DNA of 43,386 nt from positions 1-43,386 of the forward strand of contig JAUYOW010000163.1 of assembly GCA_030697825.1 (NCBI GenBank), in the 5' to 3' direction. Shown in pieces: positions 22,823-27,129 of the stretch. Both the position numbers and the translations under genes were made by a program. Source of the stretch: Gemmatimonadales bacterium. GTDB lineage: Bacteria > Gemmatimonadota > Gemmatimonadetes > Gemmatimonadales > JACORV01. The first letter of the stretch is position 1. Every line of letters begins with the position of its first letter. Below the pieces are notes generated by a model. It made no database searches. It saw only the letters and a list, made by a program, of their open reading frames with translations, and was not told the origin of the DNA.

Positions 22823-23500
22823 TTACGCCAGGGACTTCAGGACGAGCTTGCTGACCGCCTTAAGGGTTTCGAACACGCCGTCGCCGGTAACGGCCACCGC
22901 CTCGTGTGCCGGCGCGCGCTCGACCCACTCGCCACCCGGAAGCTGCTGCACGAGGAAATCGCCCGCGAAGACCGGGTCCGGTATGGCTTTCTGCCTGGCG
23001 GGATCCGTGACCGCCCAGCCGGGGTTGAGCGCCGCCTGGAGGTCCTTTGTGGGCGCGGCGTTCGGGAGGTCGCGCTTGTTGAACTGGACGATGAACGGGA
23101 TCTTCGTGAGGTCGTAGCCGTACTCGGCCATGTTGTCGTACAGGTTCTGCATGGACTCGATGTTCGCTTCCATGCGCTCGAGCTGGCTGTCGGACACGAA
23201 CACGACTCCGTCCACGCCCTTCAGGATCAGCTTCCGGCTCGCGTTGTAGTAGACCTGGCCCGGGACCGTGTAAAGGTGGAACCGGGTCTTGAAGCCGCGA
23301 ACCGTGCCGAGGTCGACGGGGAGGAAGTCGAAGAAGAGGGTGCGCTCGGTCTCCGTGGCGAGCGAGATGAGCTTGCCGCGCGCGGCCGGGTTCACCTTAG
23401 CGAAGACGTGCTCGAGGTTGGTGGTCTTCCCGCCGAGACCCGGCCCGTAGTAGACGATCTTGCAGTTGATCTCGCGCGAGGCGTAGTTGATCATCGACAT
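22823..23500 (-). CDS. mglA: MglA-type small Ras-like GTPase
   Basis: 225 residues. P-loop GPGLGGKT at 19-26, switch II region [10 protein letters not shown] (78-84 carry TVPGQ as in MglA, where Ras has DTAGQ), and base-specificity NKRD at 141-144. MglA is the bacterial polarity GTPase that positions motility machinery in Myxococcus. The protein is about 30 residues longer than usual: a segment at about 162-197 ([12 protein letters not shown], then [11 protein letters not shown]) interrupts the region between the NKRD helix and the [16 protein letters not shown] motif. Its GAP partner MglB is encoded 12 nt upstream. Confidence 0.93.
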
Positions 23501-23512
23501 GACGTGAGCCCC

Positions 23513-24004
23513 TCAGTCCCCGAACAGCTTGTCGATCTCATCTTCCGCCTCTTTGCTCCCGAAGCCTTCGAGCTTCACCGATTCCGTCCCGGCTCGATTG
23601 AACATGTCCTCGAACAGCTTGGTGAGGGTCTCGACCGTGACTTTCACCTTGAGCCGCACCATACCGAGGGTGGTGCGGTTGTCGAACAACGCGACGAGGA
23701 TGACGCGGTGCGCCACGTCCGCGAGGTACATCGATTCCTTCTCTCCCTGGTGGAAGAGCGAACTGAACTCGTGCTCGCCGATCATCTTGGCGAGCTGGTC
23801 GTTGGCGCTGAAGTCGGCCGCGGTGAGTGACGCGAAGGCCTGGGGGTCGAAGGTCGGCGGCTCGCCGACATTCGCGACGACCTGGCCGCTGCGATCGACC
23901 AGGAGGAGACTCTTCACGTTGGTCTCCCTGAGGAGACCGTTCATCTGGTCCGAGATGGCCTTGAAGTCCTCCTCCCGGAACGACCAGCTTGAAGCACCCG
24001 GCAT
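23513..24004 (-). CDS. mglB: MglB-type Roadblock/LC7 protein (GAP of MglA)
   Basis: 163 residues with one Roadblock/LC7 domain (about 12-130; FKAISDQMNGLLRETNVKSLLLVDRSGQVVA, then LVALFDNRTTLGMVRLKVK given here as family landmarks) and an acidic tail ending KEAEDEIDKLFGD. MglB homodimers stimulate GTP hydrolysis by MglA and set its polar localisation. Its position immediately before mglA on the same strand is the standard operon order. No membrane segment or signal is present. Confidence 0.92.
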   Translation of the reverse strand: MPGASSWSFREEDFKAISDQMNGLLRETNVKSLLLVDRSGQVVANVGEPPTFDPQAFASLTAADFSANDQLAKMIGEHEFSSLFHQGEKESMYLADVAHRVILVALFDNRTTLGMVRLKVKVTVETLTKLFEDMFNRAGTESVKLEGFGSKEAEDEIDKLFGD

Positions 24005-25238: not shown

Positions 25239-26927
25239 CTACTCCAGAAGCTCCAAGTCCAAGGCTTCCATGGCGCTATCCAGCGCAGGATCGCGCCCGC
25301 GAAGGGCCCGCGTCCGCTCGGCCTTGGCGTCGCTGACCGACCCGCGCTGCGTCCTCGTCGCGGGGAGCGCCGCGGCCGTCGGGGTCGCGGCCGGGACGGT
25401 CGCGGGCACCAGTCCGATCACCAACGCGGACCCCGTCACCCGGCTCAACGCCGCCTCGATCGCGGAGCGGTTGCGCTCCAGGGACTCCCGGGTCATGGGG
25501 TTGCCTCCCCTGGGACTCAGGATCACGAGTTTCCCCTCGAGGCCCGTCGGATCGCTGTCCTCGAGAGCCTCGGCCACCAGCATCTTGCGGTCGGCGCGAA
25601 GCGCGGCGAGGAAGTCGGGCCAGCGCTCCCGCAGGCCCTCCAGCGTCACTGGTCCGCTCGGCATCGCGCGCGATGCCGGCGCGAGCGCCTGCCGCTCGCG
25701 CGGAGCCGGGGGCGCACCGGGCTGCGCACCGGCAGTGCTCGCTTCGGCGCGCCCCCGAGTCCGCGCCTCGCCGGCCGCCGCGCCTCCCTTCAGCAGCTGC
25801 TCGATCTCCACCGTCCGGTCCATCAAGGCCCACCGCACCAGCACGGTTTCGAGCGCGAGACGCGGCGCCGAGCCACGCCTGATCGGCTCTTCCGCCTCTT
25901 CGAGCACCCGGAGGATGCGGAGGAGGTCTCCGGCCGAAAGCTCCGGGGCACGGCGCTTCACCTCAGCCCCCAGAGCAGCACTCACGCCGTCGGGCTCCGC
26001 GCCGAGGCGGGTAGCGAGCACGGCACGCCAGAGGTCCCCTGCGCCCTCGGCGAAAGCGACGAGGTCCACTCCGGCTTCGACGAGCCTCGCGACGAAGGGG
26101 AAGACGCCGGCGGGGCGGTGCTCGATCACGATGGCGAGGAGCTCGGAATAGGACTCGTCGCCCACCAGCCCCAGGACCTCGCGCACGCGGGCCGCGGTGA
26201 CCGCGCCCTCGCCGAAAGCTGTGACCTGATCGAGGATCGAGAGGGCATCGCGCATCCCGCCGTTGGCGACTCGTGCGATCAGCTCGATGGCGTCGGCATC
26301 GGCGGCGAGCCCCTCCGCCGTCATCACCTCCGCCATCCGTCGGCCGATGGCCTGCGGCCCCACGCGGCGGAAGTCGAAACGCTGGAGCCGGCTCATGACC
26401 GGCGCGGCGGCATTGGTGATCTTGTGCGGCTCGGTGGTGGCGAACACGAAGACGACGCCGGGGGGCGGCTCTTCGAGGATCTTGAGGAGGGTGTTCCACG
26501 CCTCGCGGGTCAGCATGTGCGCTTCGTCAACGATGTAGATCTTGTGGCGTCCTTCCTGTGACGCCGCATACATGGCGCGCTCGCGCAGGTCCCGGGCGTC
26601 GTCCACGCTGCGATTGCTGGCGGCGTCGATCTCGACCACATCGAGCGAAGTGGAGCCGCCCCAGATCCGTTCGCACGAGGAGCAGGTGCCGCACGGCTCG
26701 CCGGGCGCCGAGGTCGGCTTCCCGGCGTGGCGCGTGTCGCAGTTGAGCGCCATGGCCAGGATGCGCGCCGCCGTGGTCTTCCCTACCCCACGCGGCCCCG
26801 AGAACAGGTAGGCGTGGGCCACGCGGTTCTGCTCGATGGCGCCGTGAAGCGCGCGCGCCACGTGCTCCTGCCCGATCAGGTCGGAGAAGAGGCGGGGGCG
26901 GTACTTTCGGGCGAGGGCTATGTGCAT
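25239..26927 (-). CDS. dnaX: DNA polymerase III subunit gamma/tau
   Basis: 562 residues: AAA+ domain with Walker A GPRGVGKT (44-51), a zinc module (Cys63, Cys79, Cys82, Cys85 in CGTCSSC), Walker B IVDEAH, sensor 1 (FATTEPHKI), then the DNA polymerase III gamma/tau domain III and a Pro/Ala-rich tail with a tau-like C-terminal domain (ERWPDFLAALRADRKMLVAE). It is the clamp-loader motor. The ATG at 26927 is fixed by conserved ALARKYRPRLFSDLIGQEHV. Only 5 nt separate this ATG from the 3' end of the tRNA-Asn gene, so any Shine-Dalgarno would lie inside the tRNA. Confidence 0.96.
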   Translation of the reverse strand: MHIALARKYRPRLFSDLIGQEHVARALHGAIEQNRVAHAYLFSGPRGVGKTTAARILAMALNCDTRHAGKPTSAPGEPCGTCSSCERIWGGSTSLDVVEIDAASNRSVDDARDLRERAMYAASQEGRHKIYIVDEAHMLTREAWNTLLKILEEPPPGVVFVFATTEPHKITNAAAPVMSRLQRFDFRRVGPQAIGRRMAEVMTAEGLAADADAIELIARVANGGMRDALSILDQVTAFGEGAVTAARVREVLGLVGDESYSELLAIVIEHRPAGVFPFVARLVEAGVDLVAFAEGAGDLWRAVLATRLGAEPDGVSAALGAEVKRRAPELSAGDLLRILRVLEEAEEPIRRGSAPRLALETVLVRWALMDRTVEIEQLLKGGAAAGEARTRGRAEASTAGAQPGAPPAPRERQALAPASRAMPSGPVTLEGLRERWPDFLAALRADRKMLVAEALEDSDPTGLEGKLVILSPRGGNPMTRESLERNRSAIEAALSRVTGSALVIGLVPATVPAATPTAAALPATRTQRGSVSDAKAERTRALRGRDPALDSAMEALDLELLE

Positions 26928-26932
26928 CGAGA

Positions 26933-27005
26933 CTGGGGCGGGAGGGTTCGAACCTCCAACTTCCCGGTTAACAGCCGGGCGGTCTGCCAGTTGACCTACA
27001 CCCCA
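26933..27005 (-). tRNA. tRNA-Asn (anticodon GTT)
   Basis: 73 nt folding as a complete cloverleaf: acceptor TGGGGTG/CGCCCCA (one G-U pair), D stem GGTC/GACC, anticodon stem CCCGG/CCGGG around CTGTTAA with anticodon GTT, T arm GGAGG-TTCGAAC-CCTCC, discriminator G. The CCA end is not encoded. It lies between the SRP RNA gene and dnaX on the same strand. Confidence 0.97.
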
Positions 27006-27032
27006 TCGGCTGCCGCTTGCCGTAAAGGAATT

Positions 27033-27129
27033 GCCCCAGGCTACCCACCGCGACACGAGACATCACTTAGCGCTGCTGCCTGCGGGGCTCTGACGCGGTT
27101 CGCAAGCTCGAGCCCGATGGACCTGGGGC
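27033..27129 (-). ncRNA. ffs: small signal recognition particle RNA (4.5S-type)
   Basis: A 97-nt RNA whose ends pair perfectly (GCCCCAGG with CCTGGGGC). The internal core has the conserved bacterial SRP landmarks in order: TGCGAACC, then GTCAG (5' side of the symmetric loop), a short apical stem, AGCAGC (3' side of the loop), CTAAG, and TCGTGTCG. The core binds the M domain of Ffh. The apical part, GCC-CCGCA-GGC, departs from the usual GGAA tetraloop. Its position next to dnaX and tRNA supports the call. A weak promoter (CTGCCG, 18 nt, TAGCTT) ends 6 nt upstream. No T-tract terminator separates it from the tRNA. Confidence 0.88.

Follow-up and report, generated by a model that had tools for sequence, protein, structure and literature searches.

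A lineage-specific five-base apical loop in the SRP RNA of Gemmatimonadota

The window, which is the whole 43,386-nucleotide stretch of Gemmatimonadales DNA analysed here, carries an ffs gene for a small bacterial SRP (4.5S-like) RNA of 97 nt at positions 27033-27129 of the minus strand. Read from 27129 to 27033, the sequence is GCCCCAGGUCCAUCGGGCUCGAGCUUGCGAACCGCGUCAGAGCCCCGCAGGCAGCAGCGCUAAGUGAUGUCUCGUGUCGCGGUGGGUAGCCUGGGGC, and the termini of the RNA pair perfectly with each other (GCCCCAGG/CCUGGGGC). Helix 8 reads GUCAG-A-GCC-[CCGCA]-GGC-AGCAGC, in which GUCAG (27090-27094, minus strand) and AGCAGC (27072-27077, minus strand) are the 5' and 3' strands of the predicted Ffh-binding symmetric loop. 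In bacteria, the SRP RNA tip is seen as a near-fixed GNRA tetraloop, usually GGAA, which FtsY needs for fast docking. In the window RNA, this tetraloop is replaced by the pentaloop CCGCA (27081-27085, minus strand), closed by a stem in which GCC (27086-27088, minus strand) pairs with GGC (27078-27080, minus strand). The perfectly pairing ends, the GTCAG/AGCAGC internal loop, and the GCC-CCGCA-GGC tip in place of GGAA had all been described in the initial annotation and were readily seen in the sequence.

The genes downstream of ffs are, in order, tRNA-Asn (GTT; 26933-27005, minus strand, found by sequence scan), dnaX, encoding DNA polymerase III gamma/tau (25239-26927, minus strand), ybaB, and recR. 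Among the phylum loci long enough to judge, dnaX adjoined ffs in 91 of 106. All three genomes of the window genus carried the intervening tRNA-Asn; scans of three other loci of the family detected no tRNA there. Promoter and terminator motifs were looked for at ffs, and none was found. By Pfam matches, the region downstream of recR (22823-24004, minus strand) encodes a Roadblock/LC7 protein and, after it, a small GTPase of the Arf-like type, an MglA/MglB-like pair.

The assignment of this locus to the SRP RNAs was borne out by three comparisons, namely a match to the Rfam family, a phylum-specific covariance model, and covariation among relatives. RF00169 (Bacteria_small_SRP) matched positions 27031-27128 of the minus strand over the full length of the model (positions 1-97). 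The match was significant (E 1.7e-6), although its score of 37.0 bits was just below the curated gathering cut-off of 40 bits, and the window ffs was accordingly missed by cmscan at the gathering threshold and recovered using E-values. The RF00169 alignment placed a one-base insertion in the tetraloop and displaced the outer stem by one base. The phylum model R1 gave 97.1 bits (E 3e-16) for the window RNA, which is itself one of the 131 training rows of that model. Across the same 131 RNAs, standard pairs occupied 96.9% of the pair cells, compared with 84.9% in shuffled alignments and 37-47% in slid ones, and compensatory changes on both sides were detected in 13 of 18 pairs, a number reached in 0 of 500 shuffles. 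Because the underlying MAFFT alignment (A1) was imperfect at the 5' end of the rows from family f3, these covariation figures are conservative. The folding energy of the window RNA was mildly unusual (z -2.0), which is weak evidence taken alone, and the native hairpin fold lay 0.3 kcal/mol above the minimum.

RF00169 matches were obtained in 329 of 395 phylum genomes. The window genome, which is 98% complete, contained one ffs copy, and a second, canonical copy was found neither with RF00169 nor with the phylum model. It also contained an FtsY-type receptor (G000:C199:57128-57931). A chance hairpin was ruled out by synteny and covariation. The score just under the gathering cut-off and the modest folding z-score would suit a decayed, non-functional copy or a chance look-alike; however, the locus is the sole ffs found in a nearly complete genome, its synteny is conserved, its covariation is strong, and the same loops recur in related genomes. 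Such an origin is therefore exceedingly improbable, and the comparative data can be regarded as having already refuted it. Judged by these sequence comparisons, the window locus belongs with the small bacterial SRP RNAs.

The initial annotation had proposed that the changed loop might be a lineage feature, and comparison with related genomes upheld this proposal. We read 237 SRP RNAs from the phylum, using genomes that were picked to cover genera and are not a random sample, and kept 236; locus L209 (G333) was excluded as a different sequence, and L018 was scored as GAAA after reading by hand. The same or a related pentaloop was present in 179 of the 236 RNAs and a tetraloop in 57, and pentaloops occurred in 101 of the 120 sampled genera. 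All loops of the window family (six genomes from three genera) were CCGCA or CCGAA. Families f5 and f7 contained CCGCA, UCGCC, UUGCC, GUGCA, GUGAA, and GCGAA, and families f2 and f3 contained pentaloops together with the tetraloops GAAA, GAGA, GGAA, GGCA, UAAC, UAGC, and GCAC. The deep branches f8, f10, and f11, the last of which lies outside the class, had GGAA only. The stem closing the loop alternated among GCC/GGC, ACC/GGT, and CCC/GGG within the phylum.

A tree built from the DnaX sequences of 91 loci, with f8 and f10 as its root, had GGAA at the root side and required six changes of loop length and 18 of loop sequence. The simplest history consistent with this tree would be one early insertion in the class, converting GGAA into a pentaloop, followed by several later returns to tetraloops (GAAA, GAGA, GGCA, and UAAC) in a few lineages. 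In genus g8 of family f2, for example, UAAC and UAGC tetraloops were found, and the neighbours of this genus in the tree had UYGCC pentaloops. The sequence distribution thus supports the apical loop as a lineage-specific feature.

A pattern scan of contigs returned at least 80 loci, and among the matches listed almost all belonged to Gemmatimonadota; because this conclusion is limited to the matches listed, we do not claim that the pentaloop is confined to this phylum. Eight of the listed loci bore the names of other organisms (Paraburkholderia, Mesorhizobium, Ruegeria, Mesobacterium, Pontibacter, Frankiaceae, Allorhizocola, and Syntrophomonadaceae), and none had an SRP RNA at the matched site. 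Six of these eight genomes, all reached through chance matches, contained a real SRP RNA elsewhere, and its loop was GGAA in 6/6. A true pentaloop SRP RNA was found on a contig labelled Gammaproteobacteria (L294, SB0675_bin_31), within an ffs-dnaX-recR region like that of Gemmatimonadota. Judging by its synteny with DnaX and by a sequence nearly identical to that of family f5, this contig is probably mis-binned Gemmatimonadota DNA.

The sequences of the pentaloops followed a strict pattern, N-Y-G-N-M, in 179 of 179 RNAs. Position 2 was C or U, position 3 was G, and position 5 was A or C without exception, and position 4 was C or A, with a single U. The invariance of G3 and of the pyrimidine at position 2, together with the apparent joint change of the loop ends, argues that the loop is under constraint. 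The first and last bases were C...A in 95 loops, U...C in 46, G...A in 34, U...A in three, and C...C in one. When counted by genus, U1 occurred with C5 in 30 genera and without it in one, C5 occurred without U1 in one, and neither was present in 72, counts that overstate the coupling because of shared descent and few independent events. Independent contrasts gave three concordant cases, no discordant case, and two without a difference (sign test, p 0.25). The two ends appear to change together, in the manner that a closing pair of the GNRA/UMAC type would predict.

GNR(N)A pentaloops and UMAC tetraloops both take GNRA-like folds (PMC12550061). GUGAA and GUGCA in the phylum are exact GNR(N)A matches, and UAAC is a UMAC loop. 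In folds of this kind, base 3 holds the purine place and the last base is mostly A, with C instead in UMAC loops. The invariant G3 and the A or C at position 5 fit this arrangement, and we infer that CCGCA would adopt a GNRA-like fold, with a C.A closing pair and base 4 extruded. The C.A closing appears to be the weakest link of this argument; C at position 1, present in the window and the commonest state in the phylum, is an unusual base for a GNRA fold.

The protein side of the contact was examined by aligning 36 phylum FtsY sequences to E. coli FtsY, in which Lys399, Arg402, Lys405, and Lys406 form the tetraloop-binding patch (PMC11404819). Lys399 was invariant (36/36), the Arg402 position was R in 33 sequences, K in two, and T in one, and 33 of the 36 sequences carried K or R at position 406. 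In the window genome itself, FtsY carries K399, R402, and K406. The conservation of these patch residues, in the window genome as elsewhere, indicates that the protein side of the loop contact has been kept, although it may instead reflect other contacts of FtsY, such as the one with the RNA distal site.

Taken together, these data are probably best explained by a single functional SRP RNA gene with a lineage-wide N-Y-G-N-M pentaloop that is most likely GNRA-like with an extra base and retains FtsY docking. The RNA, its loop, the distribution and pattern of that loop, and the conserved FtsY residues are observed in the sequences; the parts of this explanation that we infer are the three-dimensional fold, the identity of the extruded base, and FtsY binding. 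The loop would fold as a GNRA tetraloop plus one extra base, with bases 1 and 5 forming a non-Watson-Crick closing pair (G.A in GYGNA, C.A in the window, and U.C in UYGCC), base 3, always G, occupying the purine position, and base 4 being the one most likely extruded. Docking of FtsY on the pentaloop would still use the conserved basic residues of its patch, Lys399 and those near it, and would speed formation of the Ffh-FtsY complex. Retention of this contact is argued from the conserved loop-binding patch of FtsY and from a loop pattern that suggests a GNRA-like fold. The altered targeting kinetics suggested in the initial annotation are a speculative part of its interpretation.

The pentaloop might also not be GNRA-like and might bind FtsY weakly, so that the acceleration of the Ffh-FtsY interaction by the tip would be mostly lost and compensated by the ribosome, the signal sequence, or the distal site. 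C1...A5 is indeed no classical GNRA closing pair, and the plastid SRP RNA of Physcomitrella provides a precedent (PMC5115805); however, G3 and the pyrimidine at position 2 are constant in 179 RNAs, the loop ends appear to change jointly, and FtsY Lys399 is kept in all 36 sequences, and we consider such a loss unlikely.

In three of the four insertion types among known GNRA-like pentaloops, the looped-out base contacts a protein (PMC12550061). On this precedent, the extra base could make a new, specific contact with FtsY or Ffh that tunes targeting in the phylum, with co-evolved changes in the proteins, and the narrow choice at position 4, which is C or A in all but one of the 179 RNAs and U in the remaining one, would agree with such a contact. 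In contrast, no FtsY residue among the 21 positions inspected tracked pentaloop versus tetraloop, and several lineages returned to tetraloops without a visible change in FtsY, which makes this proposal quite doubtful. A broader proposal, in which the extra base of a phylum-wide constrained pentaloop makes a new contact or changes the rate of Ffh-FtsY assembly and the SRP targeting cycle of Gemmatimonadota is modified, is speculative and seems to us unlikely.

Variation in helix 8 was not confined to its tip. The base following GUCAG (27089, minus strand), which we take to correspond to G49 of E. coli within the symmetric loop that binds Ffh, was overlooked in the initial annotation; it is A in the window RNA and in two other genomes (G043 and G044), and G in 232 of 236 RNAs. 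GTCAG was combined with AGCAGC in 205 of 236 relatives. In 26 RNAs (L012, L014, L029, L183, L210, and others), GCCAG was combined with AGCAAC, so that the two strands of helix 8 change together and U.G becomes C.A. A similar C.A was seen in the SRP RNAs of Frankiaceae and Pontibacter, suggesting that the GCCAG/AGCAAC state is probably a common variation. In family f6, no SRP RNA was detected by the phylum model in 21 genomes (G032, G052, and 19 others), and none scored above the cut-off with RF01854; G032 and G052 also had no RF00169 match in the phylum scan. Both of these genomes have FtsY, and the SRP RNA of family f6 has either diverged strongly or escaped detection.

A phylum with a constrained five-base loop and several returns to tetraloops amounts to a natural mutagenesis of the FtsY contact, in which evolution has kept G at position 3, the apparently paired loop ends, and FtsY Lys399 and has freed loop length and the first base. 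Because of the pentaloop, some ffs genes of the phylum fall below the cut-off of a general covariance model and can be missed in annotation. Among the papers searched, no description of the pentaloop was found, and the recorded departures of the apical loop that we found were plastid and archaeal. The tip would be a new variant of the SRP RNA apical loop, which may nevertheless have been noticed before.

Compared with the bacterial small SRP RNA (4.5S RNA, ffs; RF00169), the window RNA has the same length, hairpin architecture, GUCAG/AGCAGC loop, tip-closing stem, and single gene copy, but it has CCGCA instead of GGAA and A instead of the conserved G at the G49 position, and its score is 37.0 against a cut-off of 40. 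The GNRA-like pentaloops of the GNR(N)A type, such as the boxB RNAs of lambdoid phages, likewise have five bases in a pattern compatible with a GNRA fold and a looped-out base; the boxB loops are recognised by protein, whereas the phylum loops, known from sequence, mostly begin with C or U and end with A or C. UMAC tetraloops resemble the UAAC tip of genus g8 in family f2, and the UYGCC loops of its neighbours have the same U...C ends; UMAC loops differ in having four bases, the loop of the window genome being CCGCA. The plastid SRP RNA of Physcomitrella patens, which has an elongated loop, shows an affinity for its cpSRP54 that is 6- to 11-fold below that of a GGAA hybrid (PMC5115805). Its apical loop departs from GNRA, as the phylum loop does, but comprises about ten bases and goes with a lower SRP54 affinity, whereas the phylum loop has one extra base under strict constraint.
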